From a virus, in the IMG/VR virus record IMGVR_UViG_3300021364_000117, positions 1 through 30,289 of that record: a DNA stretch of 30,289 nucleotides; one strand, written 5' to 3'. Of this stretch, positions 2,819-29,597 are shown piece by piece; the first letter of the stretch is position 1; every line of letters begins with the position of its first letter. The position numbers and the translations under genes were made by a program. The notes under the pieces were generated by a model. The model was given only the letters and a program-made list of their open reading frames with translations. It was not told where the DNA came from and did not search any database.

Positions 2819-4198
2819 TTACTTACTTGGAAATTGAAGCTCTGCTTCTTCTTTAGCAGCTTGTTGTACTTTTCTTTTACTACCAAAATACCAAATCAAC
2901 GCTGAAGTAGTATCAGATGCGTCAGCTTCTCCTCCTAAAAAGGCTTCAGCCGCATGTCTACCTGCTTTTGAATTAAGAACAGCTAAAGCCTCCCAAACTG
3001 TTAAACCTATATGTCTTTTTTGAAGGTCATGAATTCCTTGATGAGTTAAAAACATAGCTTTATCTTCACCTAATTCGTTAGCTAAAGTACCACACCATCC
3101 GTGAGTTTTATTGACATCTTCTTCTGTATATTCTAAATCTCCCCAACTAGACATTCTGATTTCAGAGATAACGGATTCATAAACAGTAATACACATATCA
3201 CTATGTTTTACAAATTCCTTAACTTCTAGGCCCATTTCTTTGCCAACAGCCTCCATATATTCTCTACCAGCATACGTAGAAGTTCTAACTTCATATCCAT
3301 TCTTCCCCTTTTTCTTAACGCTTTTAATGGCCTTATCAGAAAAACCAGTTACATCTTCAAACTGATTTTGAAACTCGTATTTAAAATCAGATGCTGTTCC
3401 GGTATAAACTTCGTCGACTTGATCAGACTCAAATTGGAATTGTCCCTTCTTTCCCTTAGAAAAATCATCATGTTCGTCTGCGTTTACAATCGCCAATAAT
3501 CCAACATCTTTCTTTTTGACCTTTAGATCTGTGATAGCCTTTTGCTTTGCAGCCCATAGACTATCAGCTTCAATTTCATGCTTTGCGCCTTGAAATATTG
3601 CGTAAAATCTAGTTTCGTTAACAACAGATTCTCCTAAAGCATCTAAAAAATCAGAAGGTAATTCTTCTCCATATCTGTCGTCGAATATTTCTTCTAGATC
3701 CTTTATAGTAACTTTGCCTTTATAGTCATTATCAATATCATCTGGAACATCGGCATGATCTGAGTTCATAATGTCCTCTCCATATGCATCTTTCCATGCG
3801 TTAATAATGTCCTTTGCATTATACTTTTTTGCTTCGCTCACTTGTTGGCTATTTAGCCCATTTATAAATTCTTCGAAGTTTGCCATCTTCTTTTTCTTTT
3901 TTTTGTATTCTTCTTCTGCGTCGCCCCTACCAGCCGGTACATCTCCAGATCCAAGTAAACCGTCAGCTGGTAATTCTATTGGACCCATACCATTAATTTG
4001 ACCAGCTTGAATATTTTCAGGTACTCTTTCTGGTAATCCACCATGCTTAGTTGCAGCAAATTTCTTAAGCTGCTTAAGAGTCATAGAATCTGCGAGATCT
4101 TTAACCTCTTGACTAGCATCTTTAGAGTCAAGCTCACCCTTCTTATAAGCGTAAGCCATTCCCATTAATCTTTGTTGTACTTTACTAAGAGCGGGCAT
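2819..4198 (-). CDS. Mosaic protein, DUF3008-like N-terminus, candidate internal virion protein
   Basis: 459 codons. Residues 1-58 (KVQQRLMGMAYAYKKGEL, then KKFAATKHGGLPERV) match the DUF3008-type module of many phages. A linker with RGDAEEEYKKKKKK follows, and then MANFEEFINGLNSQQVSEA at 105, which looks like a fresh N-terminus with a capsid-targeting-like peptide. The rest holds a small module near 195-250 (YAIFQGAKHEIEADSLWAAK) and a C-terminal helical region (THGWCGTLANELG, then THQGIHDLQKRHIGL). No catalytic motif is recognisable. It is last in the 10541-2819 unit and is followed by the terminator. An internal start at 3886 would give a 355-residue product. Confidence 0.85.
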   Translation of the reverse strand: MPALSKVQQRLMGMAYAYKKGELDSKDASQEVKDLADSMTLKQLKKFAATKHGGLPERVPENIQAGQINGMGPIELPADGLLGSGDVPAGRGDAEEEYKKKKKKMANFEEFINGLNSQQVSEAKKYNAKDIINAWKDAYGEDIMNSDHADVPDDIDNDYKGKVTIKDLEEIFDDRYGEELPSDFLDALGESVVNETRFYAIFQGAKHEIEADSLWAAKQKAITDLKVKKKDVGLLAIVNADEHDDFSKGKKGQFQFESDQVDEVYTGTASDFKYEFQNQFEDVTGFSDKAIKSVKKKGKNGYEVRTSTYAGREYMEAVGKEMGLEVKEFVKHSDMCITVYESVISEIRMSSWGDLEYTEEDVNKTHGWCGTLANELGEDKAMFLTHQGIHDLQKRHIGLTVWEALAVLNSKAGRHAAEAFLGGEADASDTTSALIWYFGSKRKVQQAAKEEAELQFPSK

Positions 4199-4202
4199 AA
4201 TA

Positions 4203-4271
4203 TTAATTTGAAATGGGGTGCCATGGTTTTACCCAATATTCCCAAAATGCTTTTTTAATTTTACCAGACAT
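4203..4271 (-). CDS. Possible 22-codon Trp-rich micro-ORF
   Basis: The ATG at 4271 lies inside the last codons of the 830-codon gene. The ORF encodes MSGKIKKAFWEYWVKPWHPI and two more residues, and stops 4 bases before the next ATG at 4198. Three of 22 residues are Trp. It exactly fills the only gap between the two large genes and follows the overlap style of this genome, but it is too short for coding statistics. The alternative is untranslated leader. Confidence 0.35.
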   Translation of the reverse strand: MSGKIKKAFWEYWVKPWHPISN

Positions 4272-6753
4272 AATTCATATTTTCGATTTTATCAATTCTG
4301 TCTTTAATTGATTTAGCCTCTTGCTTAACCCTTTCCTCATAATAACTAGATGATAAACTAATTTGAGTTTCATTAGAATATCTTACATAGTTTGAGTAAT
4401 TATCCAGAATCTGAGACATATGATTCGCAGCGTCTCTCATTCTAACTGCTCTACCTTTAGGATCTCTGCCTATTACAAGTTCTCCGCTTTCAACTTCACC
4501 TTTGGCTAGACCTTGTTGAATTTGTAAAGTTAAAGCATCTACCGCGTCCTTAACCATTTTATCTAAAGGCAAGTTAGCTGCTTTGTCTGCTAAGATCTCT
4601 TTATATCGCTTCATATTTTCTCTTTTAAAATCTTTATCTGATTTAAAAGCGATTGCACCTTTCTTAGCAGCTGCTCTATCAGCCATCTTTCCAGCAGTTG
4701 AATACTTATCTCTAAGTACCGCAGTATCTAAGACAACCGCTCTATCTGCAACCTCTGAAATTCTCTTCGGATTGTAAAGGCCCGTTGAATCCCAGCCTTT
4801 ATACTTTTTACTAATACCTACGCTATCACCGGGTTCGCTAGACACTAAAGTTCGGCCGTTGCCGGATGAATTACGGCTCCATGTCATGCCCTGGAATTGA
4901 TTACCCTTAACAATAGCCAAAATACCAGCTGGGATAGTTTTTTGCCCTTCGTAATCAGCATGTGGATTTTCTTTTTGTTGATCTACTACGTAAAATATAA
5001 CATAGCGATTATCTTTGTCCTTTCTAGTTATAGCATGCGCTTCAGCTGCACTCATATCAATTATATCTTCATCCTCTACTTTATCTAAAGCAACATTAGC
5101 CATGTTATAAAAAGCTTTAGGTAAGTCCTTTAATGAGCTAGAAGACCAACTGCGAGATATTTTAGTATTAAAAAGTTGAGCTAATTTGGCTGACTTAAAT
5201 GCCTCGTTAACGTCCCCTCCTACTTCAATAGAATTTGACTCTACTGGCTCAAACATTCTTTGGGCCAATTTAAACTCTTCTCTATGGAAATGTCTTAAAT
5301 AAGTTCTAACGGCGTCGTCTACTAAACCTTCATAATTGGTTTTGTATTCAGGCCACTCATCCCAATATCTATCAACTGCACTTTCAGCCGCATCTCTTAG
5401 TTTTTTATCAAACGGAGATGGCATGTTTTTAGGCTTTCTAATCATATAGTGAATTACTTCACTCATAGCATAACTATCAGAAGTTCCCCATTCATTAACA
5501 GTTTCTTCATTTAGAGAAGCAATAAACTTTCCAAATGATTCTGAGACTAATTTATTTTCTGTAACTTCTTCTGTTTCTTCTACTTCGGGAGCTTCCTCAC
5601 TTACATCTTTTACTGTAACCGGAAAGGTTTTACCCTTAAATTCAAATTCTTTTAAACCTTCTGCTTTAGCTGCTCTAGCTGCAGTAATAAATGCGTTTCT
5701 ACCTTCACCCAACATAGAACCATCCCATGTTTCTGGTGAGCCAGACTTAGCTTTCATACCTACAATCTTTTCTATCTTAGGTATATTAGAATTTGCTTTA
5801 TTTTCCTGTCCTGTTAAAGAAACTCTTAAGTAAATCTTTTTACCTTGAGGATAAAAATCACAATCACCTAAACCTTCCCCTTCAATTTTGTCAGCTAATT
5901 TTTCAGCAGTCTTTTCATCCTTTAAAATAAAGTTAATATGTCCATCTCCTTTATCTAACATATCTTCATATTTACCTTCTTCTATAACATCATCTTCTAT
6001 CAACTCAGACTCTAGGACTTGAAGACCTAATTGTCTACCGTCTTTAGTTTTAGCAACAGCGTACTTCCATTCCTTTTCTTTTTCGTCCCAAAGATAAACG
6101 TATTCTGCACCATCATATGCAACGTCTTGTAGATAATCATCTAAATCTTCTAGTTTTCTTTTTTGAGTCATATCATATTTGGTTTCGCCTCTATCTCTAC
6201 CGTAGAATACTGTTTGACCGTCGATTGGTGTATTAAAGTGGTGACCTTCGCCTCCTTCAATACCAGGCTCTAAATATGAAATACCATTCTTTCCAAGTTT
6301 TAATAGTTCTTTCATCTTTTTAGTGTCAGAAAAATGATCTTTTGCCATTTGGCCTACGCCTTCTGGATAACCATCGCTATGAACATACGTAGAGTGAATA
6401 ACGCCTCTTCTATCAATGATACCAATTTGAGAACGCGTAGATTCTAAAATAAAGCCTTCATTTTCATTGATTGCAAATGTTTTAAGAACTCTTTTACCAA
6501 ATCTAGATAATGTGATACCGTCTTCTGATACATTAAAGTATTTTGCATTTCTGGTCATCCATCTTTTAGAATCATTGCTTAATTCAGATAAAATAGAATT
6601 AAACTCTTCTTGAGTTAGCGTGCCATCAGCAACCGCTTCTATCATTTTGTTTCTGACTCTTGCCGTTAAACCAGCTTCCATTGCTGGATGATTTTCAGTA
6701 TAACGTCTCTTTAACGTTACTTTCTTTTCATTTAGGAAATCTTGGAATTTCAT
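4261..6753 (-). CDS. Large multi-module candidate internal virion protein
   Basis: 830 codons. The protein opens MKFQDFLNEKK, close to the T4 capsid-targeting sequence, with a possible prohead-protease site after LNE (residue 9). Residues 108-190 hold IGIIDRRGVIHSTYVHSDGY, PEGVGQMAKDHF and TVFYGRDRGE, a conserved phage domain of unknown function. Residues 352-383 carry AFITAARAAKAEGLKEFEFK and GKTFPVTV, a short module seen at the ends of other phage proteins. A second tag-like peptide (SESFGKFIASLNEE) begins at about 404, and DVNEAFKSAKLAQLF at about 514 starts another segment with YVIFYVVDQQ. It looks like several small cargo modules joined together. It follows the repeated promoter-like element at 6772-6785. 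No enzyme motif is evident. Confidence 0.85.
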   Translation of the reverse strand: MKFQDFLNEKKVTLKRRYTENHPAMEAGLTARVRNKMIEAVADGTLTQEEFNSILSELSNDSKRWMTRNAKYFNVSEDGITLSRFGKRVLKTFAINENEGFILESTRSQIGIIDRRGVIHSTYVHSDGYPEGVGQMAKDHFSDTKKMKELLKLGKNGISYLEPGIEGGEGHHFNTPIDGQTVFYGRDRGETKYDMTQKRKLEDLDDYLQDVAYDGAEYVYLWDEKEKEWKYAVAKTKDGRQLGLQVLESELIEDDVIEEGKYEDMLDKGDGHINFILKDEKTAEKLADKIEGEGLGDCDFYPQGKKIYLRVSLTGQENKANSNIPKIEKIVGMKAKSGSPETWDGSMLGEGRNAFITAARAAKAEGLKEFEFKGKTFPVTVKDVSEEAPEVEETEEVTENKLVSESFGKFIASLNEETVNEWGTSDSYAMSEVIHYMIRKPKNMPSPFDKKLRDAAESAVDRYWDEWPEYKTNYEGLVDDAVRTYLRHFHREEFKLAQRMFEPVESNSIEVGGDVNEAFKSAKLAQLFNTKISRSWSSSSLKDLPKAFYNMANVALDKVEDEDIIDMSAAEAHAITRKDKDNRYVIFYVVDQQKENPHADYEGQKTIPAGILAIVKGNQFQGMTWSRNSSGNGRTLVSSEPGDSVGISKKYKGWDSTGLYNPKRISEVADRAVVLDTAVLRDKYSTAGKMADRAAAKKGAIAFKSDKDFKRENMKRYKEILADKAANLPLDKMVKDAVDALTLQIQQGLAKGEVESGELVIGRDPKGRAVRMRDAANHMSQILDNYSNYVRYSNETQISLSSSYYEERVKQEAKSIKDRIDKIENMNYVW

Positions 6754-6771: not shown

Positions 6772-6785
6772 CTTTTTCTATATAT
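6772..6785 (-). promoter_or_regulatory. Candidate late promoter, 14-mer ATATATAGAAAAAG copy 1
   Basis: The minus-strand 14-mer ATATATAGAAAAAG recurs at 10560-10573. In both places TATATAGA lies 24 bases before a start codon (here 6753) and directly after the stop of the preceding gene. It resembles a diverged T4 late octamer. Function is inferred from repetition and position. Confidence 0.5.
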
Positions 6786-8626
6786 TAGGATTTTAAGAAC
6801 TGATTAAAAGTCATAACGTTCGACGTAGACTCCATTGTTGCCATTGATTGCTCTAACGTATCTTTAAGTTTTAAATACATTGGATGAATCTCCTTCGGTG
6901 TTAGCTTCTTAAATTGTTTTTCATCACCAGCTAACATTGCATTTCTAACCTGAGTAGCTGAAATATTCTTACCAGTTCTTGGTATCTCGAACAGTCCAAA
7001 ATCATCTCTGACGCCTAAATCATCTCTATATTCTTGCTTATCTACTTGATAGCTATAAACCTTTAATCTATCAGTTCCAGTTCCCCAAAGTACTGGTTCA
7101 TATTTAGGTCTCATTTCATTAAACATTTTGTCGATGGCTGCAGAAGGTATAACAAATACCTCTTCAATTGGATACTTCTTTTTTAGTTTTTCCAACATCT
7201 CAATTTGTAGTTCTTCAGAATAAGGTCTTTTAAATGCATCCTCCTTTTTCTTAGTCTTTGACTTAACTAAGAAAATAACAACAGGGTAACCGTTTTGTTT
7301 ATGAATAGCATCTATAACTTTAGCATGTCCTAATGTAAAGGGTTGGAATCTGCCAACAAACATATTAACCGGCTTTGCACCTTGATCAGGATGTTCAACA
7401 GTCAACGCTTCAACAATTGGACTAACTTGGGTTTTTAGCTTTTCTTGCTTTAAGTAAGTATTAAATGTCATAATCTCTGATTCATTCTTTTTTGCAAAGA
7501 CAGCGGCTTCTATCTTTTCTACGATCTCATTCATTTGAGACATAAGGTCGGCGTTTATAATCTTGGTTTCCTTTGTTCTCTTTTTTCTAAATGAACCCAA
7601 CATAATCTTAAATAATTCTGATAGATCCTCGTTTTGAATTAGTTTTATCGTACCTTCGTTTTTAATAAAATCTTTGTTAAGTTCAAATCCTTTTCTACTA
7701 GAAAAACCTGCCGAATCAAATTCAGCACCTATATACTTAACTGCGTTCTTAGACATATATTGATTAAATATCTCTGAAACTAGCTCGATGTATCTTAAAT
7801 CTGTATCTTCTTCTACCAATTTTACATCATCCATATTGAACTGAGTCATATACTCAACAAGATCTAGAATCGTAATTTGATACATGTCAGAAGCTTCTCT
7901 TTCTTTTTCTTCAACTTTATCAAATCTACCAAGTTTAAAGTTCTTAATATTCTTTTTGTCTATAAAAGAAACTATAAGCGAATCTATATCTCCATCTAAA
8001 CCTTCATTAAGAGCAGTCTTATTTGCCATGTGATTAAAAATACTATAGACCTTTCTAGTAAAGGAAGTATTTTCAAATACATTCTTAAATGATTCATTAT
8101 TCATTTCTAAAAGCTCAACTAACATGTCCTTTTGATTAGAATCTAAAACTCCGTTAAATAATATAGGAGGAGCCTGAACTTGTAGCATATTAGACCATTT
8201 TTCAAGAACTTTAGGGTCTCTAATTACTTTTTTAATTTGAGTTGGGTCAGTTGGATTTAAAACTTGAATATGTGTTAAAATAAGGTTATTTTTAGGAAGA
8301 GCATCATATTGAATATCAACTGTTCTCTTTTCAGTCATATAGTCAAAACCAAACTTCCAATCCTTTGGCATATCTTCTCTAACCTCTTTAGGAATAGATC
8401 TAAAGAAATCGATTGCATTTTCATAATATCTAACAATAGTTCTATCAACCTTATTCATTGGTGTTCTAGAACCGCTCTTATAATAATCGTATCCTTTATC
8501 AGTATTTCTAACGTGAAAGGAAGAAGCTTGAATCTTTTCAGTAACCAAGCATCTTTGCTTTAACAAAGCCATAAACTCATTTCTATTAACTGAGTTAAAG
8601 TGTTTTCTTAGATCTTGTAGTGCCAT
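6785..8626 (-). CDS. Ligase-fold-like N-terminus fused to NMN-adenylyltransferase-like domain
   Basis: 613 codons. The C-terminal domain (about 420-590) has VNMFVGRFQPFTLGHAKVID with the (H/T)xGH nucleotide-binding motif as TLGH, VLWGTGTDRLK in the middle, and ISATQVRNAM matching the ISxTxxR signature. This is a nucleotidyltransferase of the NadR/NMNAT class, expected to make NAD from NMN and ATP. The N-terminal 240 residues show VTEKIQASSFHV (K31), WKFGFDYM, and DSLIVSF followed by NFKLGRFD, which line up loosely with motifs I, III, IV and V of RNA/DNA ligases, with the usual Glu of motif IV replaced. Tag-like peptides occur before the NMNAT domain (MTFNTYLKQEK, about 386) and at the very end (MTFNQFLKS). 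The gene overlaps the 428-codon nucleotidyltransferase by one base (TAATG). Confidence 0.85.
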   Translation of the reverse strand: MALQDLRKHFNSVNRNEFMALLKQRCLVTEKIQASSFHVRNTDKGYDYYKSGSRTPMNKVDRTIVRYYENAIDFFRSIPKEVREDMPKDWKFGFDYMTEKRTVDIQYDALPKNNLILTHIQVLNPTDPTQIKKVIRDPKVLEKWSNMLQVQAPPILFNGVLDSNQKDMLVELLEMNNESFKNVFENTSFTRKVYSIFNHMANKTALNEGLDGDIDSLIVSFIDKKNIKNFKLGRFDKVEEKEREASDMYQITILDLVEYMTQFNMDDVKLVEEDTDLRYIELVSEIFNQYMSKNAVKYIGAEFDSAGFSSRKGFELNKDFIKNEGTIKLIQNEDLSELFKIMLGSFRKKRTKETKIINADLMSQMNEIVEKIEAAVFAKKNESEIMTFNTYLKQEKLKTQVSPIVEALTVEHPDQGAKPVNMFVGRFQPFTLGHAKVIDAIHKQNGYPVVIFLVKSKTKKKEDAFKRPYSEELQIEMLEKLKKKYPIEEVFVIPSAAIDKMFNEMRPKYEPVLWGTGTDRLKVYSYQVDKQEYRDDLGVRDDFGLFEIPRTGKNISATQVRNAMLAGDEKQFKKLTPKEIHPMYLKLKDTLEQSMATMESTSNVMTFNQFLKS

Positions 8627-9912
8627 TATCTTCCGTATTTTATAATGCCCAATAACTGGTTAATAGCAGCGAACGTACCAGTTAATTTATAGTTTTTACC
8701 TTTGTATCTAAATACTATACCTTCGGTTGGTAATATAGATTGCATGCCTCCGATTCTATCAAGTCTAGCTAATTCAGCTTCAACCTTTTCAATATTAGAA
8801 ATGTTATCTCCCTTTCTAATCTTTTCTACTTCTTTATTTAAATACTTATGTAATCTTTGTACCTCTTTATCTGGGTTTGCTGAAATAAAGTTACTTGCAT
8901 TTTTAATGATGATGGATCCAAGTTCTAGGAATAGATCCTCAAATGGTCTAATATTTTCCTTATACTTTTTCTTGACATCTTCTTGATCAAACTTCTTAAT
9001 TGCGGCATGCTGTGTCTCATCTACTAATTTGCTAATTGCTCGCAAATCTAGAGTTTTCTTATCTTTATAAGCCCATCTCAAAAGTAAACCTTCCTTTACA
9101 TCCTGTGTTAAATTACCGAAGTGTTCCTCGATTTGATCTCTCCACCACATTTCATGATATCTAGATACTTCATCGGCATCCGTTAAGCCATACCTATCTC
9201 TTAGTGCTTCTAGCTTTTTGATGAATTTAGCTTTATTCTTATCAAAATCTAAATCCTTTCCTATTTTAACAATTTGTGGAGGGATAATGGTAAATATTTC
9301 ACCGACATGTGCGTTGATTTTTTCAATAGCATTAGCTAACGAAGTAGCTGATTCAGGGTTATCACCTATAATATTACCTTCTCCATCTGTTATAACAATA
9401 CCATGAAATTGAATTACGTCACCTGCGTCATAATGAATAACATTAGGATTCTTTGAATAGATCAACTCCATATTCATCCAGTTTTTACCGTTATCGAATA
9501 TTTCTAAATCTTTAGCAGAAAGCTTAGGTAACGTTGTAGATAATTGTTTACCTGCCTCTATAAATGTCATTCTAACCAATTCTGGACGATCATCCCATTT
9601 TGTTATAAATGCATCTATGTCCATAGGAGCTCTTAACTCTCCTTTATTTCTAGAAAAAAAGACTTGACCGTCCATTACGGTGGCAAAAAGATTTTGACCA
9701 TCTGTTTTTTCTCTAGGCTCTATTTCAAAATTAAGTTCTCCGCTTAGTCCTTTTTCTATAAATAGCCTAAAGTCTCCAAATGTCAAAGATTTGTTTTCAA
9801 ATGGATGCGCCATATGGCCAGCTGCACCACCCTCCATAACAAGAGAATAGCCCATGTCTATGGGCTGCTCTCTTTCATTTAAAAAATCTTTATATAATAG
9901 GATTTTATTCAT
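8626..9912 (-). CDS. Ligase-superfamily nucleotidyltransferase-like protein with capsid-tag-like N-terminus
   Basis: 428 codons. EKTDGQNLFATV holds the KxDG motif I (K69 as candidate adenylated lysine). NMELIYSKNPNVI (E149) fits motif III, TEGIVFRYKG (E397) motif IV, and YKLTG (K409) motif V, in the right order. GHMAHPFENKSLTFGDF before motif I is a signature I associate with an uncharacterised phage family. The spacing between motifs III and IV is long (about 250 residues), so this is not a standard Rnl1, Rnl2 or DNA ligase; a divergent RNA ligase, DNA ligase or protein-AMPylating activity are all possible. The N-terminus, YKDFLNEREQ, resembles a capsid-targeting peptide. TAATG overlaps link it to both neighbours. 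Confidence 0.8.
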   Translation of the reverse strand: MNKILLYKDFLNEREQPIDMGYSLVMEGGAAGHMAHPFENKSLTFGDFRLFIEKGLSGELNFEIEPREKTDGQNLFATVMDGQVFFSRNKGELRAPMDIDAFITKWDDRPELVRMTFIEAGKQLSTTLPKLSAKDLEIFDNGKNWMNMELIYSKNPNVIHYDAGDVIQFHGIVITDGEGNIIGDNPESATSLANAIEKINAHVGEIFTIIPPQIVKIGKDLDFDKNKAKFIKKLEALRDRYGLTDADEVSRYHEMWWRDQIEEHFGNLTQDVKEGLLLRWAYKDKKTLDLRAISKLVDETQHAAIKKFDQEDVKKKYKENIRPFEDLFLELGSIIIKNASNFISANPDKEVQRLHKYLNKEVEKIRKGDNISNIEKVEAELARLDRIGGMQSILPTEGIVFRYKGKNYKLTGTFAAINQLLGIIKYGR

Positions 9913-10541
9913 TATCCAAGTGAGCTTTGTAGCATACCGGCAGCTTCACCGTAATCTCCGCCAGCTTTGGATAAAATTCCATCTACTACTTCTTGAGCCT
10001 TTGCTTCGTCAAACTCGTCTCCAAATGCCTTTTGAAGAACTGAGAATGCATACTCTTTAAAATCTTCGTCTGATTTAATATCAGCCTCGTTAACCTTAAC
10101 TGATTCTCCCAAAGAAGATGTTAGCATACCTACAGCGGCACCATAGTCTCCTTCTGCCTTACCAAGAATACCGTCTATAGTTTCTTGTGCTTTAGCTTCA
10201 TCAAAATCTTCACCAAATGCTTTTTTCAAGACTGTCATTGCATATTCTTGAAACTCTTCTTCGGACTTAACTTCAGCTTCAGTAACTGAATATGCCTCTT
10301 CTAATCTATCAATCATATAGTTAACGTCCTCGTTTACTTCTCCACCTCTTAACTTTAAAAAGAAAGAAGTTTTTTGTTCTTCATCTAATTCATTAAGATC
10401 TGTTACACCGTATTCGGCTAAAAGAGATTTAAATGTTTCGGCACTAGATGTTCTTTTCGCTTCTTGCTCTTGTTCTAACTTGATTTGAGCCTCTTGTCTT
10501 TTAGCAGAAGCAAAGCTATTAAAGTCTTGTAATTTATTCAT
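9912..10541 (-). CDS. Acidic duplicated-domain protein, possible prohead core or internal protein
   Basis: 209 codons, rich in Glu, Lys and Ala and probably all helical. Residues 1-35 form a charged helix (AKRQEAQIKLEQEQEAKR). Residues 86-145 and 150-209 are two copies of a 60-residue domain, about 42 of 60 identical by my alignment. Each contains KAFG, FDEAKAQE and GDYG. It is first in the unit after the promoter-like 14-mer at 10560-10573 and precedes the candidate packaged proteins. That position, together with the acidic helical composition, suggests a core or scaffold-like role, but there is no homology I can name. Confidence 0.8.
   Translation of the reverse strand: MNKLQDFNSFASAKRQEAQIKLEQEQEAKRTSSAETFKSLLAEYGVTDLNELDEEQKTSFFLKLRGGEVNEDVNYMIDRLEEAYSVTEAEVKSEEEFQEYAMTVLKKAFGEDFDEAKAQETIDGILGKAEGDYGAAVGMLTSSLGESVKVNEADIKSDEDFKEYAFSVLQKAFGDEFDEAKAQEVVDGILSKAGGDYGEAAGMLQSSLG
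9915..10094 (-). repeat. 60-residue domain, copy 2
   Basis: This stretch encodes residues 150-209 of the 209-codon protein (starts VNEADIKSDEDF, ends LQSSLG). It is the tandem partner of 10107-10286, separated by four codons. Confidence 0.85.
10107..10286 (-). repeat. 60-residue domain, copy 1
   Basis: This stretch encodes residues 86-145 (starts VTEAEVKSEEEF, ends LTSSLG). By eye 42 of 60 residues match copy 2, most differences being E/D, V/I, K/Q or T/S. Confidence 0.85.
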
Positions 10542-19741: not shown

Positions 19742-21787
19742 TTATGGTCTAACGTTGCCCCCTGTTCCTGAGCCATCGGCTGAACTAACCTGCCCGCCAC
19801 CTGCTGAACTTCCATCATTAAATGGGAAATTAGATTGCATAGAAGTTTTATCACATGGATAAGTAAATGAAAAATCAGAGTATATCCAATTACCAGCATT
19901 TCCAAAAGTACTAAAGTCATAGTGACCTTCTTTAACTCCCTTTACTGTCAAACCGCCTCCGAATCCATTAGAATTATTTAATGGAAATAGGTAGTGATTT
20001 CCATTAGATTGTACTACAACGTTTTGATTAGGTAGTGTATCTTCCCCCTGTATATTTAATTCACCATGTGTAAATACAGACGTTACTGTAATAGCAGGAT
20101 CTAATCGTCTATGTAATTCGGGTATTTTAAAGCGAAGTATTTGACCAGTTGTATCCTCAGTCCATTCGTATGCAGTTCTTCCTGTTACGTCTTCGAACAT
20201 TTCGCTAAATGAAGTTCCATCATATCCTTGGTTACCTCCTATTTGTATAACTGGTTTCCAAATTAATTTAACTTGTAAAGTAACCAAATCTCCTATCTTT
20301 TGATACGATATTTCAGTACTTCCGTTTATGGCTGTTAATAGATTTTTTGTAGTATTACCATCAACATAGTAAAATAAGTCATCAGTTATAATTTCGCCAG
20401 TATCTCCACTTGATATGCCTATAAAGTCTTCATCCCCTTGGCCATCAGCTATTAAATAACCGCTTATATCTTCAGGAGTAATAAACGAACTTTCTTCTAA
20501 TTCAAATGGCCCTACAGGTCTACTAAAATAATCATCAAGAGTTCTTTGACTAATACTTGTGTTATAGTTAACTGCTGAACCACCGCTTGGAGAAGCTGTG
20601 TTAGTAGCAGCTGGACCCTCTTGGAATGATATGCCTTTTCCTGTTTCTATAAAATGAACTCTTTCTCTAGCAAAGACAGTTTCATTAACGACTATGGTAG
20701 GGACAGTTGTTGATCCAGCTGCAGATTCAGATTGTAAAGAAAGTTGAGTACCTCCTATTCTTAAAAAGTTTTGATTACTAGAATAAAATATAATTCTATC
20801 TGCATCTCCACCGTTAATAGGCAAATCTATATAAGTATCCCCATCTGCGTCTGTTAGCTGTCTAAGATTTAACCAAATATCACCTTCATCGGTATTTTGA
20901 TAATAAGCTTCATATTGATTAGTTTGTGAATTATATCTTAGGTTACCTCCTGATAAGTCTCCAGAAGATATAGCGTCTCTTTCTGCATTTGTACCTTTTG
21001 AAATTCTAGTAAATCCGCCACCTTGAACTAATAAGTCAGCGTCAACTACGTGTACTCTATCGTTAAAATAGGACTTAGTACCTACGCTTGTATAGAAACC
21101 ATCTTCTGTAGAAATTATTTCTGTTTTATTAGCTGATAATTCTATAACTCCTGCACCTGCATTATCGTTAGTTGCATTTAATGTAATATCATCAAAGCTA
21201 ATATTACCCTTTATCTTTAAATTGTTAGACGCTAAACCCTTTTGAATATGAAATATTCCGCCATAATTATCTTGTGTTAAGGTGTCTCCTCTGACCACCA
21301 TATTAAAACCATCTTCCGATATAAGTCTGATGTGATTTTCAAATGGGTCTTTTTTACCTATAACGAGAGAAGATCTAGCCTCGTTATCACCATCTTCTGA
21401 ATTTAAATTATTGAAATTAGGATCTCCTATATAAACCGAAGTAGGTTGAATATCTTGAGTAGGAACTCCATTATAGCTATCATCTATTTTAGGTTTGATA
21501 ATAGTAGTGTCATAATCAGTTGCATTTTCTCCAGTAACCGCAGCGTGTTGTATTGAATACCATCTATCTTGTCCATCATTTCCATCACTGCCATCGGCTC
21601 CAGCAATGCCCGCAGGTCCTTGAGCGCCTTGCGGTCCAACAGGACCTATATTACCTTGGACACCTTGTGGCCCTCTTGGCCCTAGCTGTCCACCGGTTCC
21701 TATAATTTGATCAAAATTATAATTAATTTTGTCAATCTTAATTTGATTTGTATCAGAAACAAATATTTCCTTTAAGTTAATAGGCAT
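19742..21787 (-). CDS. Collagen-like tail fibre protein
   Basis: 681 codons. It begins MPINLKEIFVSDTNQIKIDK followed by INYNFDQIIG, a head often seen in fibre proteins. Residues 31-74 are Gly-x-Y triplets (GPRGPQGVQGNIGPVGPQGA, then QGPAGIAGADGSDGNDGQD), a collagen-like triple-helical shaft that implies a trimer. The remainder is beta-rich with repeated Asn/Asp/Gly loops and GDIWLNLRQL, VHFIETGKGISFQEG and a C-terminal Gly/Ser-rich tail (SSAGGGQVSSADGSGTGG). It probably contacts the host or links baseplate to fibre. It follows the giant protein gene after one base. Confidence 0.85.
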   Translation of the reverse strand: MPINLKEIFVSDTNQIKIDKINYNFDQIIGTGGQLGPRGPQGVQGNIGPVGPQGAQGPAGIAGADGSDGNDGQDRWYSIQHAAVTGENATDYDTTIIKPKIDDSYNGVPTQDIQPTSVYIGDPNFNNLNSEDGDNEARSSLVIGKKDPFENHIRLISEDGFNMVVRGDTLTQDNYGGIFHIQKGLASNNLKIKGNISFDDITLNATNDNAGAGVIELSANKTEIISTEDGFYTSVGTKSYFNDRVHVVDADLLVQGGGFTRISKGTNAERDAISSGDLSGGNLRYNSQTNQYEAYYQNTDEGDIWLNLRQLTDADGDTYIDLPINGGDADRIIFYSSNQNFLRIGGTQLSLQSESAAGSTTVPTIVVNETVFARERVHFIETGKGISFQEGPAATNTASPSGGSAVNYNTSISQRTLDDYFSRPVGPFELEESSFITPEDISGYLIADGQGDEDFIGISSGDTGEIITDDLFYYVDGNTTKNLLTAINGSTEISYQKIGDLVTLQVKLIWKPVIQIGGNQGYDGTSFSEMFEDVTGRTAYEWTEDTTGQILRFKIPELHRRLDPAITVTSVFTHGELNIQGEDTLPNQNVVVQSNGNHYLFPLNNSNGFGGGLTVKGVKEGHYDFSTFGNAGNWIYSDFSFTYPCDKTSMQSNFPFNDGSSAGGGQVSSADGSGTGGNVRP

Positions 21788-21788
21788 C

Positions 21789-24700
21789 TTATTGCGTTAT
21801 TTTTATCATAGGTCTTATAATATAGGAGTATCCTTGACTCTTATTATATATCAATCTAAAGTTAATAGGCCTTTGAGCATGTTGATTAACAGTGTAATTT
21901 ATGTCTAGCTTAAATCCTCCGTTATCTATAAGATCTAATGATTCAACTGGATTAACAGAAGTAGATTCGCTTTGTGTTCTTCTAGTGTATATCTCTATTT
22001 CATCTACCGAAAATAGATTAACTAAGTTTGTGTTAACGTATGACCTAACATCGTCTGTTAAATCGGTTTTATCCTGGAATGAAGATGCTGCGTCAACATA
22101 TTTTTGAATTTCACCGGCGACACCAGACACTGAAAGAACGTCAGAGATTAAATCAGTCATGTAAAAATCTACATATACTTTTTCAGAATCTTCTGCAAAT
22201 ACTACATTGGCTTCATGAGAATTATTCTTTAGTATTAAATCTAAGTTTTCAAACGTACCAGCGTTTTGAGTAGTAAACGAAGTTAAAGTGTATGATTCCT
22301 TAAGTTTCATTACAGTAGAAGATAAGTAAGATCTAGATTCCTTAGTAGAGAAAGTTCCAGGAGAAGAAGAAGATTCTCCTCCAGCTAAAGCAGTTCTATA
22401 ATAGTCATCTTCCCAAGAAGACCTAAATACATTAACATCTCTTTTATCTATGGCTATTTCTCCAATAAGAGGGTAAACGGGTGAAGCTTCTCCACTTTCG
22501 CTTAGTTTCGTAACACCAGTTGAATTGTCTTCATTTACTTTATGATAAAAATGATTCTTTATCATTCCCCAATCTGTGTCATGTCGCCCATCATCAGAGA
22601 TGAATCCAAGATTAAACGCAACGTTAGCACGATTATATTTAATATAGTAAGACTCGGCTTTATGTACCCTTCTTGGACCCAAAGATTTAATCTCATCTAT
22701 TTGAGAAGAAGGATGTCTATAGAAAGTATCTTTAAAGTTTCTCTCTTCTAAGAACGAGTTTTTAGCATAGTTTCTATTAACTTTGAAATGAGAATAAATG
22801 TCAGTAAAAGTTACTACTGGTTTTAAGTCACATGTGTATTTGCCAGAATGTCTAATTAAGAAAGGATAATATGCATTTCTAGTTTGTAATTCGTAGCCTA
22901 TCGTACCATTAAATAAAGAGTAGCTCTTAGGCTTGTTATTATCAGGTTCAGCTATTAAGTTAGATGCTCTTACTATTTCTTTACCATCATCTATTGATAT
23001 AACAAATCTATTAGATTGAACTTCTCCGTCTTTAGTAATTGTAGTATATTTTATAGATGGGTCGTTTTCGTTAACTAAATTAAATATATTGCTGATCGAT
23101 AGGTTATCCAATAACAAACTATGATTGTTTATACCTCCTCCAACATATGTATATTCTGCAAATTCTTGTAATGAAAGAGGTAAATAAACAGGATCTATTG
23201 TATCTCCATTTTGATCAAACGGTAAACCTTGAATAATTAGTTGAGAATCTGAGACAACACTAACTATCTCTAATTGATATATTAGAGGATTTCCTTGGTC
23301 GTCTAAAGTTTGGTAATCTATACTAAGTATACCATATGTGTTATCAGAATTAGGAGATATTTGTGTTAAGAAATTAGGTTCTGAACCATCAAAGTGTGTT
23401 ATGCCATTAACAATATATGGCCCAGGAGAATTAAAGTCAATATCGCTTAAGTCTAAAGCTCCAGATATTCTAACGTTATCAACTGTATATTCACCATCTT
23501 CTTGTAAATTCAATTGATTTGAAAGAAGATATGATAGTTTTCTATTTAATGTGTTTCCTACATAGTCTTCGTCTAAGTTAACAGTTATGTAGAAAATAAT
23601 AAATTTAAACGCATCGTTTTTGATAATTTCATAGTCTATTGAATTTCTACTTTGACCCGTTTTGTAATCAACTACTGTAGAAAACTTATAATCATTAAAG
23701 GTTCCATCTTTTAAGAATTCTGAAGGCTTTATCTTATCAAACTCTTTTCTATTCTTAAATTCAAACTTAAGTCCTTTGAATATAGTAGATGCAAAAGATC
23801 TATCGTTTCCACCTCGACCTATAGAATATTTAATATTTCTATTAGTTTTTACAAATGCTTCAAACTTGTTAAAGTCTTGATTAGATACTGAAATATTACC
23901 TCCAACAGATGAGTCATATTCAAATGTAAAAAATCCATAGGTATTAGGTGTATATATGCCAAACTCTATGCCTCCTATATTTTCTTGCTGATACATACCA
24001 ACTGAGTTTTCTATTACAAATAAGCTAGGATCGACATTACTTAAATCAAAGTAGTATGTGTTATTTGCAACCATATTTAGTGTTGTGCCAGCCTCTCCGT
24101 TTATGTAAACTATGTAACCTCCATTAGAATTTACTGAAGTCGTAACAACATAATTCTGTTGTTCATCTGGGTCAACAACTACATCAAATCCATCACTTAC
24201 CATAAAGTTGGTAAAGTAATCTTGTTCAGTGGACTTGAACATATCTTTAGTTAGTTCAAATCCTGAAATGTAGTTAATATAGCTAAATGTATCGTTTAAC
24301 ATATAATGTTTTAGATATTCTGGCTTGTTAACTATGTAAAACCATTCATGTGTAAATGCCTTTGGATCTTTTCCCTTTACTGTAATATCTGGAGAGAAGT
24401 TGGTTCTGCCAAAGGCTTCATTTACATTCAAATAGTAAGGATTATCTCTAACCGTTTTAACGTCCTTTAAAACCCATTTGTTAATATTAGGAACTACTCT
24501 AGATTCAACTGCAAATTCTTTTAGTCCATTTTCTTGCAATCTATCATATTCAGAATCTATCTTAAAGGAAGTTTGATCTTCTGGATTTTCAGGATATAAA
24601 ACAGGATTTAAGCCTGCAAAGAAGAGTTCAGGATCTTTTAGATAATCAGGATCTATTATACCCTCAAGTGCATTAATTTCTTGTCCAGCTTCTGCATTAA

Positions 24701-27700
24701 AAACGGCTTCGTTAGCAGGTACGTAATTGGTATTTTGATATGTTTCATATTTAAGCTCTTTAAGATCTGAATTAGAAGTATCGTAAAAATCAAAATTCAT
24801 ATCATAGATGTCGTAGGCTGAAAATAAACCTATTTCAGCTTCAAACTCTCTAAACACCTTAAACTCTCCGCTGCCCAAGTCATGTCTATTTTTTAATATA
24901 ACTTTACTGTAGTTAGACGTAACGTCTTCAAGATTTTCTACTATGTCTATGACTCTATTATACCCTGCGGTTGTTTTACTATCTATGTAATCTCCTATAC
25001 CTAAACCTCCTATTGAATCGTTAGATATGAGTACTGAACGGCCATCAGAATGACCACCTATTAAATAATACGACTTCCAATCATCTAAAACAATTTGTGC
25101 TATTTTCAAGTCGTTAGTCTCATCTTCGTTTGAAGATGATATAAAATCAATAACATTAGACTTGTTTACTAAGATAGCATGTTGATACCTAGCGTAACCT
25201 ATGTTTCTATCTGAATAAACATATATGTCATTGTTGTTAACAAAGGCAATCATACTGTCTTGCTTAGATATAGCCCCTGATAGTGCTACAACTACGTCTT
25301 TGATACTACCTTGATTAGAGAATTCTCTTTCTGTGCATCTACCTTTATCAATTGCCGAGTTTGCGGTAATTAAGTTTTCAAGTAAAATAGCACTAGTATA
25401 GTTTTTTTCAACCTTAACAACTTGAGCAGGGTTAGATGAAGAAACTTCTAAATTAATATCGTTAAAATAAGAATTAAATTCTTTTACAAATATTGTGTCG
25501 CCTTCTCTTTCTACTAGTAACCCAGATATAGATAGCTGATTTTCTAAATTGTCAATAGCCTCTTCTTTAGTAGCTCCCGAGTTTATCTGCATTGTAGATC
25601 CAGGATATGAAGTTGTTATAGTCATAGTGGATCCTGGAACATGACTAATTAGACGTATGCAATACGATTGTTTTTTATTTTCTATAACCGATATAGAATC
25701 ACCGTTAAATGGTATATCAGTAATTGATAATTTAACAAAATCATATCCTACGCCTTTGTTTTCTTCTAATTCTACAGTGGTTAAAGTATCTTTAATTCCC
25801 GTAAATCTATTAATATCGTCTCCGTTATCATCAACCTTTAACGTATAGTTTTCAGCACTCCACTCGCTTCCGTTTTTGATGTTATGGTAGTGTGTATCAC
25901 ATTTCACATAGCCTAATACTGGAATATCTCTCATCATTTGACTAGATGGTATAGCAAATGTATCACCGTCAAATGAAGAATTAGGATAATTATCATAGTA
26001 CATAAAGGACGTCAAATCCTTAAACTTAATTAAGCCTGAATTAACTCTTTGAATCTTACCTTTACCTGAAGGTATTTCATCTACGAATAGTCCAAAATAA
26101 CGACTAACTGAATATTCACTAGCCTCTTCGTCATCGAACATAAATTCTAAGTTTAGAATATTAGAAGATACTATTCTATTTCTTTTAAACCCATCGGTGA
26201 TAAAGTCATTTGCTTCAATCAAAGGCTTATCAGTAGCTACAAAGTCTTTGTAAATAAATTCACCTTTACTTGAAAAGCCTCCTTTTACCAAATCTATTCC
26301 CTTAAAGAATGTTTGCTCATTCTTCTCAAAAGAAACAGTTAGCTGACTATCTTGGAAAAACTCATTGTAAACGTGTTTTCTAATATATTGACCTAATTTA
26401 GAAGACTCAGTTAGATCAAATGTTTTAACTATGGTGGCATTAGCTAATATAGACTTGATTCTATCTTGTTTATCAGGACCTAAATCGTTGTAATTTACAT
26501 TTGGTTTAGGAGAATTAACTCTGTAAATAACGAATGTTTTAGGTATATTTGTGTCTATTTGGATAGGAGCAAATATTCTAAAGTTCTCGTCGTACAGCTT
26601 AGAATTGTTAAACCTAGTACCATATTGATAATCTTCTTCGAATTGTAAATCATATGATTCTAAGACAGAAAGATCAGAAGCTCTCCTTTTGGTCTCATAG
26701 ACCATATCATACGGAGTCTTATTATCATTAAAGAATCTAGAAACATCATATGAATAATCACCTTCTGGGCTTACTCCATATCTTTTGTAACGAGAATCCG
26801 AAAGATCTTTGTTTGCGTTTATTGATTCTAAGTATATTTCTCCTCTCGAATCAGTAACAAGCTTAATATTTCCAGTTAGCCTAGGATTAGTTCTAAGAAG
26901 AGGCTTAGAGTTATTATGTAAGTCATAGTTTTGCTCTAGTCCAAATCTAGGTCCAACCTCTTCAGTTTCACTACCGTCATTAAACTCTGGTAAAATATAA
27001 AAAGTACCTGGACTGTTAATTGTGTTAAGACAATCGTCGCATCCTCCCTCATAATAGTATACTGTACCTTGGCTAGTTATACCTATTGTACTTGGACTGA
27101 CAAACTGAACATCCCCCTGGAAGTACCCAAGTTGAGAAGACATTAGCTCTTCGGCTTGTGCAGGAGATGATGCAAATATTCTACCTACATATTTTTTACA
27201 ACCATAATTTAAATCAGTGGATGCATAACTATAGAAAGAAGAGTTTAAACCGATGTCATCAGTAAACTCAGACATATAACTTACGTCATTTCCTGATAAG
27301 TTAGTATGCTCTCCGAATATTAAGTAGTGAGTATATTGACCGTTAACGGGGATGCATGAACTAAAAACATAAAATGCTAGTAAGTAATCTGGACCTCCTA
27401 CTTCAGTTAGTGTATTATCGTTTAATGTGTCAAAATAATTAGGAACGGGCTCTAAATTACACTGAATAGACCCAGTTATATAAGCTGATGATTCTATTTG
27501 ATTAGAATTTAATCCTATCCAATGGCCGCTAATTCCATCCGAGTTTGCAACCCATTTATAATAATAACCAGTGTCATCTGAATATGCGCCCGTAACTAAA
27601 GTTTCATCACCTTGTAAAGTAGTCCTAAGCTTTATGTTATATTTTGCTATTTGATCTAATGTGAGGTCAGGAAGATCGGCATGTAAATTATAGTATAGCG

Positions 27701-29597
27701 TAGAACTTGAATATAGCGGAGGTGAAAGTAATCCCTTTTGTCTATAACAAAATTCATCAGAAAAATCATATTCAGGGAAAAGGAAGTTCCAAAGAACATT
27801 TGTTGTTATCAAGCCTGTAATTTGTCTAAGAGTGCCTTGACAAACAAAAGGAGAATTATAATTTTCTGAAATGTTTATTTGATTTCTACCAAACCATCCA
27901 TTAGAAGTATCGATCTCTGCCTGCTTGTTGAAACGATAACAAAATCCAATCTCTTGATTAAAGAAACCATTTAACAGTAATTCTTCTGTTCCATAGTAAG
28001 CACCATATTCTGTAGTAAACTCATACAGCGGTATTTGATTTAACAAAATTTCATCAAAAGTTAAATCATCTGTTCCAAATGGATTTAAATAAGCACACGT
28101 TACTGTATGTTGAGCTTGATTGGCTAAATTAACATTACAAAAGTCACTTTGAGATTCACTATAAATTAAATCTATTGTCTTAACCTGAAGTAAGTTTATA
28201 TTTTCAACTCCACAAAAACAAGGAGGAGCCCCTGGAGGAAAATAAGGATTACTTGGTTGATAATTAGGATCTACTAACGCATATTCACTAAATTGACCCA
28301 TCAATAGACCGAATGTGTAAAATCCGGGTACACTATATCCATCAAAGGAACTAGAGGTATTTGGATCAGAAGTTAAGTATACATAGTATCTGTTTTCGTC
28401 TAGCCCATAAGAGCCGTCAGGTGCATTAATTAACTGCCAATACTCTGGTAAAACACCTTCTGGTAAAATATTAGGTGTAATATAAATAGGCTCCTGAGCT
28501 AACATAAGCTCCTCCATAGAATTATATTCTACGTTGTTGTTAGTATAAAAAATTCTAAGGTCATTGCCATTTGCACAAAATAGATTAGAATTGGGATCTG
28601 TTCCTGCAAATATATCTTCAAATACCGTAATATCCTCTGTAACGACCGCTATTGAGTTAGCGTACTTAACTGTAAATTCTCTGACCGTTTCATCTGGAGC
28701 TACAACTTGAGTACATAATGATTCTTCCCAGTTTACAGTATAATCATTTATCAAGCCAGACGCTTCGTAAATAGTTACATCATTGGAGGTACTGGGAAAT
28801 CCTTGATTAGCAAAGTAGCCAAATTCTAGTATATCACCATTCGAATCCATTAAAGGAATACCGGCTGCTGCTATCTGGGCTAACGTTGCTCCAGCCGGGA
28901 CATCTTCGGTTGGAAAATAACTTACACCGCTAAGCGGTATAGAGAGTTGAGAAAAGTTACATGGAGAATCTCCTTGTCCTGTAATAACTTTACGATAAAC
29001 TTGTCCGGGAGTACCAGTAAATTCTACCAATACTGGATTTACCGGACTAACTAATTTGGTTTGTAAATTATCAGAAGTTTGACCTCCTGGAAGAGTTAAC
29101 GTGTATGTTTCCCAAATATAATCAGGGTTATGTAGTATTACACCTACTGGAGGGTCGTAACTATAAACAACAGCATCTTCATTATCGGCTGGATCAAAAT
29201 TGGTTACTGGAAATGGAGTTGCACTATATTTACCAGGAGCTGCTTCATTTTGAAATTGATTATCGAAGTAAAGTTTTACACCTAATGGCGCTATTTGACC
29301 TATACTCCATCTAGGGTTTTGGCATCCGGCTCCGCCTACAAACAATTCAGCATCAGCGGGCGGAGGTAAATCTAAAACACCATCAGGATGTTGAGAATGT
29401 GCAAGAATAGTGCTATAAACCGTACTGCAGCTTACAGATCCAACTGGATCATCAGAAACCACTCTATAGAAATAAGTTATTGGACCAACAGATGTAGGAA
29501 GTTGATCCGCATCACCCTGTGCTAAAGTTAAACCGTCATGTGGCTTATAGTAAAGCTCTATACTTTTCGTATGAAGCGGTGGTAGTTGTTCGGCCAT
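21789..29597 (-). CDS. Giant virion structural protein, 2602 aa
   Basis: A very large beta-rich protein placed between a structural gene and the fibre. The first 700 residues carry about five degenerate repeats of 120-150 residues, each with a core like DLTLDQIAKYNIKL (at about 97, 237, 359, 511 and 644). Cys residues are frequent up to about 860 (CDDC at 853-856) and rare after it. From 900 onward come YDVSRFFNDNKTPYDMVYET and RIFAPIQIDTNIPKTFVIYR, then long structural stretches, and at 1832-1906 the domain shared with the 695-residue protein. No peptidase or lysozyme motif is recognisable. Size and location suit a baseplate, tail-tip or adhesin component. The start is ATG at 29597 behind an A/T-rich leader with no Shine-Dalgarno. 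Confidence 0.85.
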   Translation of the reverse strand: MAEQLPPLHTKSIELYYKPHDGLTLAQGDADQLPTSVGPITYFYRVVSDDPVGSVSCSTVYSTILAHSQHPDGVLDLPPPADAELFVGGAGCQNPRWSIGQIAPLGVKLYFDNQFQNEAAPGKYSATPFPVTNFDPADNEDAVVYSYDPPVGVILHNPDYIWETYTLTLPGGQTSDNLQTKLVSPVNPVLVEFTGTPGQVYRKVITGQGDSPCNFSQLSIPLSGVSYFPTEDVPAGATLAQIAAAGIPLMDSNGDILEFGYFANQGFPSTSNDVTIYEASGLINDYTVNWEESLCTQVVAPDETVREFTVKYANSIAVVTEDITVFEDIFAGTDPNSNLFCANGNDLRIFYTNNNVEYNSMEELMLAQEPIYITPNILPEGVLPEYWQLINAPDGSYGLDENRYYVYLTSDPNTSSSFDGYSVPGFYTFGLLMGQFSEYALVDPNYQPSNPYFPPGAPPCFCGVENINLLQVKTIDLIYSESQSDFCNVNLANQAQHTVTCAYLNPFGTDDLTFDEILLNQIPLYEFTTEYGAYYGTEELLLNGFFNQEIGFCYRFNKQAEIDTSNGWFGRNQINISENYNSPFVCQGTLRQITGLITTNVLWNFLFPEYDFSDEFCYRQKGLLSPPLYSSSTLYYNLHADLPDLTLDQIAKYNIKLRTTLQGDETLVTGAYSDDTGYYYKWVANSDGISGHWIGLNSNQIESSAYITGSIQCNLEPVPNYFDTLNDNTLTEVGGPDYLLAFYVFSSCIPVNGQYTHYLIFGEHTNLSGNDVSYMSEFTDDIGLNSSFYSYASTDLNYGCKKYVGRIFASSPAQAEELMSSQLGYFQGDVQFVSPSTIGITSQGTVYYYEGGCDDCLNTINSPGTFYILPEFNDGSETEEVGPRFGLEQNYDLHNNSKPLLRTNPRLTGNIKLVTDSRGEIYLESINANKDLSDSRYKRYGVSPEGDYSYDVSRFFNDNKTPYDMVYETKRRASDLSVLESYDLQFEEDYQYGTRFNNSKLYDENFRIFAPIQIDTNIPKTFVIYRVNSPKPNVNYNDLGPDKQDRIKSILANATIVKTFDLTESSKLGQYIRKHVYNEFFQDSQLTVSFEKNEQTFFKGIDLVKGGFSSKGEFIYKDFVATDKPLIEANDFITDGFKRNRIVSSNILNLEFMFDDEEASEYSVSRYFGLFVDEIPSGKGKIQRVNSGLIKFKDLTSFMYYDNYPNSSFDGDTFAIPSSQMMRDIPVLGYVKCDTHYHNIKNGSEWSAENYTLKVDDNGDDINRFTGIKDTLTTVELEENKGVGYDFVKLSITDIPFNGDSISVIENKKQSYCIRLISHVPGSTMTITTSYPGSTMQINSGATKEEAIDNLENQLSISGLLVEREGDTIFVKEFNSYFNDINLEVSSSNPAQVVKVEKNYTSAILLENLITANSAIDKGRCTEREFSNQGSIKDVVVALSGAISKQDSMIAFVNNNDIYVYSDRNIGYARYQHAILVNKSNVIDFISSSNEDETNDLKIAQIVLDDWKSYYLIGGHSDGRSVLISNDSIGGLGIGDYIDSKTTAGYNRVIDIVENLEDVTSNYSKVILKNRHDLGSGEFKVFREFEAEIGLFSAYDIYDMNFDFYDTSNSDLKELKYETYQNTNYVPANEAVFNAEAGQEINALEGIIDPDYLKDPELFFAGLNPVLYPENPEDQTSFKIDSEYDRLQENGLKEFAVESRVVPNINKWVLKDVKTVRDNPYYLNVNEAFGRTNFSPDITVKGKDPKAFTHEWFYIVNKPEYLKHYMLNDTFSYINYISGFELTKDMFKSTEQDYFTNFMVSDGFDVVVDPDEQQNYVVTTSVNSNGGYIVYINGEAGTTLNMVANNTYYFDLSNVDPSLFVIENSVGMYQQENIGGIEFGIYTPNTYGFFTFEYDSSVGGNISVSNQDFNKFEAFVKTNRNIKYSIGRGGNDRSFASTIFKGLKFEFKNRKEFDKIKPSEFLKDGTFNDYKFSTVVDYKTGQSRNSIDYEIIKNDAFKFIIFYITVNLDEDYVGNTLNRKLSYLLSNQLNLQEDGEYTVDNVRISGALDLSDIDFNSPGPYIVNGITHFDGSEPNFLTQISPNSDNTYGILSIDYQTLDDQGNPLIYQLEIVSVVSDSQLIIQGLPFDQNGDTIDPVYLPLSLQEFAEYTYVGGGINNHSLLLDNLSISNIFNLVNENDPSIKYTTITKDGEVQSNRFVISIDDGKEIVRASNLIAEPDNNKPKSYSLFNGTIGYELQTRNAYYPFLIRHSGKYTCDLKPVVTFTDIYSHFKVNRNYAKNSFLEERNFKDTFYRHPSSQIDEIKSLGPRRVHKAESYYIKYNRANVAFNLGFISDDGRHDTDWGMIKNHFYHKVNEDNSTGVTKLSESGEASPVYPLIGEIAIDKRDVNVFRSSWEDDYYRTALAGGESSSSPGTFSTKESRSYLSSTVMKLKESYTLTSFTTQNAGTFENLDLILKNNSHEANVVFAEDSEKVYVDFYMTDLISDVLSVSGVAGEIQKYVDAASSFQDKTDLTDDVRSYVNTNLVNLFSVDEIEIYTRRTQSESTSVNPVESLDLIDNGGFKLDINYTVNQHAQRPINFRLIYNKSQGYSYIIRPMIKITQ
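23880..24104 (-). repeat. Domain shared with the 695-residue protein, copy in the giant protein
   Basis: Encodes residues about 1832-1906, including AGTTLNMVANNTYYFDLSNV, DPSLFVIENSVGMYQQENIG and SVGGNISV. It matches 18484-18684 and resembles short beta-sandwich (cupredoxin-like) modules. Confidence 0.7.
27498..29597 (-). repeat. Array of about five degenerate protein repeats
   Basis: Residues 1-700 of the giant protein. The recurring core is (T/S)-(L/I/M)-x-(Q/E)-(I/L)-x(4-5)-(I/V/P)-x-(L/I): WSIGQIAPLGVKLYF, ATLAQIAAAGIPLMD, SMEELMLAQEPIYI, LTFDEILLNQIPLYE and LTLDQIAKYNIKLRT, 122-152 residues apart. Flanking segments often hold a Cys and an aromatic Y-x-Y or GYYYKW strand. Confidence 0.55.

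Follow-up and report, generated by a model that had tools for sequence, protein, structure and literature searches.

A tagged fusion of an RNA-ligase-like and an NMNAT-type domain as candidate head-packaged cargo of T4-like marine phages

Why should a viral gene join an NMN adenylyltransferase (NMNAT)-type domain to a ligase-like fold and surround the former with short tag-like peptides? The window analyzed here, the 30,289-nucleotide stretch of IMG/VR record IMGVR_UViG_3300021364_000117, contains such a gene (Table 1). The open reading frame picked out by the initial annotation is real and is kept by its relatives; conservation counts given below as x/67 refer to the distinct full-length fusion sequences. 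Relatives in IMG/VR viral contigs are 51–98% identical, the uncultured phage LR756500 (462 kb) has one of 36% identity, and phages of 635–735 kb carry relatives of approximately 25% identity that have the ligase-like domain only. Fold, motifs, and conservation all support the proposed joining of an NMNAT-type domain to a ligase-superfamily fold with flanking tags. A PADLOC search gave no match to any defence family, and the T4-type late promoter TATAAATA showed no enrichment. We consider, with a probability of roughly 55%, that the protein is head-packaged, injected cargo of a T4-like marine phage and acts early on NAD and RNA ends.

Table 1. Positions of the fusion protein, its domains and motifs, and the tagged neighbouring genes within the window.
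Feature	Coordinates	Strand	Support or conservation
Fusion protein, 613 aa: ligase-like domain, tag, NMNAT-type domain, tag	6785–8626	-	67 distinct full-length sequences
Ligase-like domain (Rnl2-type nucleotidyltransferase), C-terminal part helical, residues 1–378	7493–8626	-	AlphaFold, Foldseek
Motif I EKIQASSF, residues 30–37, nucleophile lysine K31	8516–8539	-	K31 66/67, E30 67/67
Motif III FGFDY, residues 92–96, acid D/E95	8339–8353	-	D/E 66/67
Eroded motif IV DIDSLIVS, residues 213–220	7967–7990	-	D/E215 49/67
Motif V-like NFKLGRF, residues 229–235, K231	7922–7942	-	K231 59/67
Internal capsid-targeting-like tag IMTFNTYLKQE, residues 385–395, in disordered linker	7442–7474	-	F/Y388 66/67, Y/F391 66/67
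Predicted prohead-protease site IVE↓A between domains, residues 404–407	7406–7417	-	E406 66/67
NMNAT-type HIGH nucleotidyltransferase domain, residues 418–596	6839–7375	-	Pfam PF01467, 5e-10; profile vs PDB
Active-site motif GRFQPFTLGH, residues 425–434	7325–7354	-	67/67
Active-site motif ISATQVR, residues 555–561	6944–6964	-	S556, A557, V560, R561 67/67
C-terminal capsid-targeting-like tag VMTFNQFLKS, residues 604–613	6788–6817	-	T606 63/67, F610 59/67
Ligase B, second ligase-like protein, 428 aa, directly upstream, start/stop overlap with fusion	8626–9912	-	Foldseek and motifs
Ligase B N-terminal tag YKDFLNE	9874–9894	-	
Ligase B motif I EKTDGQN	9691–9711	-	EKTDGQ in 116/118 members
Ligase B motifs IV (PTEGIVF) and V (YKLTG)	8677–8730	-	
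Downstream neighbour, 830 aa, N-terminal tag FQDFLNE (6727–6747)	4261–6753	-	
DUF3008 protein, internal tag FEEFIN	2819–4198	-	S-SCSM1 DUF3008-like protein annotated as virion protein

The two motifs by which the C-terminal half had been recognized, GRFQPFTLGH and ISATQVR, are both present and intact in all the fusions, and D499, F502, N503, and R506 are likewise kept in 67/67. The Pfam family CTP_transf_like (PF01467) spans residues 422–562. A profile search of the PDB using 11 diverse members of the domain gave MJ0541 (1f9a, 1.7e-8) and slr0787 (2qjo, 1.6e-7) first, and the best 11 PDB sequences were all NMN adenylyltransferases. As in NadM-like proteins, the HIGH-superfamily fold is found together with [H/T]xGH and ISxTxxR; the score for the NCBIfam equivalog TIGR01527 was 28.4 bits, below the cut-off of 181.2. 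Specificity for NMN is thus likely rather than proven, since the sequence profile lies nearest to NMNATs, yet phosphopantetheine adenylyltransferases fitted equally well or better when the fold alone was compared. The domain differs from its best sequence-profile matches, NadM (MJ0541) and the NMNAT/Nudix protein slr0787 of Synechocystis, in having TxGH in place of HxGH, no Nudix domain, and a fused ligase-like fold, and in that NadV is usually not found with it.

The N-terminal half was identified by structure comparison alone: it reached no family cut-off for a ligase in Pfam, NCBIfam, or PHROG, and a profile search of the PDB gave nothing useful. The AlphaFold model (m4acb3063ad97), for which rows from phage records were left out of the input alignment, has a pLDDT of about 90 across residues 10–230. 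Foldseek gave T4 Rnl2 as the best PDB match (2hvr, E 5.7e-8; a second Rnl2 structure, 1s68, E 4.6e-6 and TM 0.53 on the target), followed by the tRNA ligase Trl1, the RNA editing ligase REL1, and Rnl1. The structural check suggested in the initial annotation places the predicted fold of this half in the nucleotidyltransferase superfamily. The loose ligase match noted at residues 25–240 holds as a predicted fold, but its extent was underestimated, as the fold reaches residue ~378. The description "degenerate" is also fair: motif I is EKIDGSS or EKINGSS in relatives (EKIDGSS in the close ones) versus EKIQASS here, and motif IV, mostly IDGLI in relatives, has DS at 215–216 in the window, so that its EG is not intact, while its acid is kept in 49 of the 67. 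Rnl2-type enzymes are expected to have both EG in motif IV and K-x-K in motif V, a combination not found here. N or D takes the place of the motif I lysine in the huge phages and LR756500. Given the erosion of motif IV and the loss of this lysine in the huge-phage relatives, the module may serve in RNA binding alone or as a structural part. Considering the predicted Rnl2-type fold and the conservation of K31, K50 (67/67), and D/E95 alongside weaker motifs IV and V, we regard it as a diverged ligase-superfamily module, and the domain of the marine clade might perhaps still form an AMP adduct. The T4 RNA ligase 2 (gp24.1) family is the closest solved fold and shares the motif I lysine, but identity is only ~12%, motif IV is eroded here, and no profile match is significant.

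The tag-like peptides that had been noticed are indeed present, with cores MTFNTYL (386–392) and MTFNQFL (605–611) flanking the NMNAT domain, and they resemble the capsid-targeting sequence (CTS) of T4. T4 ipII and ipIII start with MKTYQEFIAE followed by A, and among the 81 open reading frames of the fetched T4 stretches, only these two showed the CTS-type pattern. In T4, the CTS loads proteins into the prohead core and is removed by gp21 (PMC3012670, PMC5694885). Among 197 neighbouring genes in 21 related loci, the strict tag motif occurred within the first 22 residues of 57, against 0.45 in shuffles, and at a control position (residues 31–52) in 2. Genes of unrelated content open with such peptides, as do ligase B (YKDFLNE) and the 830-aa protein (FQDFLNE) next to the fusion gene, and KLFEQF[IVL]NE starts many short genes in the relatives.

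The first tag lies in a linker modelled as disordered over residues 379–406 (pLDDT <50) and is followed by IVE↓A, where I/L/V/M404 and A/G407 are kept in 65/67 and 66/67, respectively. This site resembles IAE↓A of T4 ipII and ipIII and aligns with INE↓A, which ends the N-terminal tag of a stand-alone tagged NMNAT in contig L015. On sequence grounds, the [ILV]-x-E↓[AG] site is likely a prohead-protease site, cleavage of which would part the two enzymes in the head. The gp21 protease family (PF03420) scored above the cut-off in 8 of the 11 related records, including a 122-kb contig with a 98%-identical protein; the window itself is too short to show it. The PF03420 domain sits in open frames of 635–831 aa in eight of the records (G001–G007 and W01) versus 220 aa in Microcystis phage Mel-JY01, and in the eight the prohead protease is possibly fused to another part. 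The order of tag and [ILV]-x-E↓A/G site is thus that of CTS-bearing internal proteins, the E followed by A included, and relatives have a gp21 homologue. In contrast to IPII, IPIII, and Alt of T4, the tags are internal and C-terminal, the N-terminal ones being found in the neighbours, and what would be packaged is a fusion of ligase-like and NMNAT domains. Alt, like the fusion protein, is an NAD-linked enzyme, and its processing by gp21 at both termini (PMC5694885) gives a precedent for C-terminal tags.

A similar combination of enzyme and tag is found in cyanophages. NMNAT-like proteins were detected by mass spectrometry in purified virions of S-SCSM1, S-CREM2, S-CBWM1, and S-SZBM1 (PMC9602691, PMC10665884). 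Contamination of the virions was allowed for by the authors (PMC10665884), and the accessible text of the two reports names no signal for loading these proteins (PMC9602691, PMC10665884). The fetched sequence of the S-SCSM1 NMNAT opens with MKSFLQFLKEA, the same kind of tag, and a virion protein encoded near it, the DUF3008-like SSCSM1_93, has TFKEFLEYIE at its C-terminal end. The cyanophage proteins, named "cytitidyltransferase" (for example, S-SCSM1 ORF91 and S-CREM2 ORF154), are HIGH nucleotidyltransferases as here, and those we examined carry a CTS-type tag. They differ in being encoded by a separate gene, in having a single N-terminal tag and, in the members examined, no fused ligase-like domain, and in reading GRFNPP where the fusion protein reads GRFQPF (~25% identity).

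These observations led us to prefer a role as packaged cargo. What the analysis establishes is the anatomy of the sequence, the predicted folds, the conservation, and the recurrent association of NMNAT with ligase-like modules; that this phage packages and cleaves the protein, that the domains are catalytic, and that they act jointly on NAD and RNA ends is what we infer. The tags, matching the CTS, would dock the fusion protein in the prohead core, where a gp21-type protease would probably cleave it at the site separating the domains and possibly a second time close to the C-terminal tag. The RNA-ligase-2-like and NMNAT-type modules would then share the virion and reach the cell along with the DNA. 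At that stage, ahead of all phage gene expression, the NMNAT module would produce NAD+ from NMN and ATP, and the ligase-like module, together with tagged ligase B, would bind or seal RNA ends broken by the host. Reading the peptides as address tags for head loading, we think it probable that injection of the protein accompanies that of the viral DNA and that it works in the first minutes of infection. Packaging, to which the tags point, would shift the time at which the enzymes act; the initial annotation had left the tags unexplained.

Among the other explanations, the one nearest to the initial annotation is that the protein only replenishes NAD+ against NADase defences of the host, the ligase-like domain being a passive carrier or scaffold anchor. 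We consider this doubtful. It agrees with the intact NMNAT motifs (67/67) next to an eroded ligase motif IV and with the loss of the ligase lysine in the huge-phage relatives, but the near-invariant K31, K50, and D/E95 would be needless for a passive carrier. In addition, NADases release nicotinamide and ADP-ribose, whereas an NMNAT requires NMN. The NMN-making NadV family, which would favour replenishment, was found in 3 of the 11 related records searched (most of them fragments). A search of 8 IMG/VR contigs, which may be incomplete, left 7 without a NadV match, among them a 212-kb one; nor did the contig that encodes the 98%-identical relative give a match. The suggested recycling of NAD depleted by host defence is thus partly supported: three records bear NadV, but in most it was not found, and the products of NADases do not include NMN. 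One of the 11 related records has KptA, which would require NAD+ for RNA repair. In a survey of viruses, all NadM-bearing phages also had NadV (PMC9503650), and NAD-reconstitution pathways are known phage counter-defences (PMC12774641). Namat was rejected as a match, being a NAMPT-like enzyme and not a HIGH nucleotidyltransferase (PMC12774641).

It is improbable that the tags are cytoplasmic docking or scaffold-interaction peptides and that the fusion protein acts late in the infected cell. Their internal and C-terminal location, with none at the N-terminus, would suit such a function, but they match T4 ipII/ipIII and a virion protein detected by mass spectrometry, and both a protease site and a protease gene are present.

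The pairing of NMNAT and ligase noted at this gene extends to the upstream neighbour, ligase B, which is itself ligase-like, suggesting that the NMNAT travels with ligases. In 101 of the 119 loci, no more than 60 bp separate ligase B from the fusion gene downstream of it, and the members of ligase B keep PTEG[ILV]VF and [YFM]KLTG. The first PDB matches of its model in Foldseek were ligases, although weak (best E 4.5e-3); a profile search of the PDB gave nothing useful, and hhalign did not support common descent of ligase B and the ligase-like domain at this depth. In most relatives, residues 27–38 of ligase B (9796–9834, minus strand) form an invariant EGGAxGHxxHPF approximately 30 residues before the motif I lysine.

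Elsewhere the NMNAT and ligase-like modules are fused in both orders, adjacent, or separate yet tagged. The NMNAT is fused ahead of ligase B in Mel-JY01 and in LR756508, where the fusion has a ParB-like N-terminus. In contigs L012 and L015, which probably represent a single event, the fused NMNAT is missing and a 426-aa protein ends with both tags in tandem; just upstream lie genes for a tagged Pol-beta-like protein and for an NMNAT that is separate, tagged, and ~33% identical. An intron was rejected there, as the sequence has the protein terminating after both tags; the larger protein of L113 was rejected as an NMNAT-free case, since it lies at the locus edge and the NMNAT comes next. The Pol-beta-like protein (L015: 6567–7451; L012: 6101–6982; 293–294 aa), encoded between the NMNAT and ligase-like genes, has a nucleotidyltransferase-like GSAGKKKEGQTSGDIDIAV motif and is a candidate RNA-end nucleotidyltransferase, with a weak Pfam match (E 0.13).

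More distant arrangements were also seen. Campylobacter phage CP220 gp026 (YP_009169160), encoded near the portal gene, likewise combines a ligase-like N-terminus (EKYDG; weak Pfam RNA_ligase match, E 0.029) with a HIGH C-terminus (profile E 9e-11), but the erosion is reversed: its ligase motifs look intact and its HIGH motifs are eroded. Contigs of cyanophage type pair a DUF6267 gene, which has a KWDG motif, with a tagged NMNAT-like gene directly after it; this order holds in all 68 testable loci (68/68), which amount to few independent cases because the contigs are closely related. The cyanophage DUF6267 protein (PF19782; L126: 2794–3789) has a HEGF..YKIVDR stretch besides the ligase-like KWDG motif. 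As hhalign did not support homology of DUF6267 and ligase B, we claim the KWDG motif only and not a ligase.

Repeated fusion in both orders would be accounted for if the ligase used NAD+ as AMP donor and freed NMN, from which the NMNAT would remake NAD+ in cis. We consider this improbable: the AlphaFold model leaves only ~24 residues ahead of the first long strand, with no apparent Ia-type domain for NAD binding, and the nearest folds are ATP-dependent RNA ligases. There is a slim chance that a packaged two-domain enzyme NAD-caps or decaps RNA ends, or repairs them NAD-dependently, on entry, NMN being added or removed by the NMNAT module while the ligase-like module grips the 5' end of the RNA; a 2021 review reports no post-transcriptional NAD-capping enzyme (PMC8131947). 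The least probable reading is that the NMNAT joins NMN to 5'-triphosphate A-RNA held by the ligase-like module, or the reverse: it comes from the architecture alone, an NMNAT physically joined to an RNA-ligase fold, and an unproven proposal holds that NMNATs could add caps after transcription, but E. coli NadD and NadR gave no capping (both in PMC8131947).

The cargo reading connects two loose ends, namely cyanophage virion NMNAT-like proteins without a known loading signal and many unnamed genes of marine T4-like phages that share a short motif at the N-terminus. Should this motif be a CTS of the T4 kind, what a common group of ocean phages injects early would be readable from sequence, and the cargo at this locus would include enzymes of NAD synthesis and of RNA ends. 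The arrangements also suggest how cargo may evolve, with domains gained or lost between tags.

Other genes of the window showed further features. In the 830-aa protein, residues 105–239 match phrog_1987, and parts of the protein match jumbo phages of Erwinia, Serratia, Pectobacterium, and Caulobacter. The 209-aa product of the gene at 9912–10541 (minus strand) has LQDFNSF as a tag-like start and contains a stretch of ~55 residues (KSEEEFQEYAMTVLKKAFGEDFDEAKAQE..) twice in nearly identical form; the gene in this place is far longer in relatives (397–708 aa). The 2602-aa protein encoded at 21789–29597 (minus strand) is presumably tail related, as it adjoins a collagen-like tail fibre gene (19742–21787).
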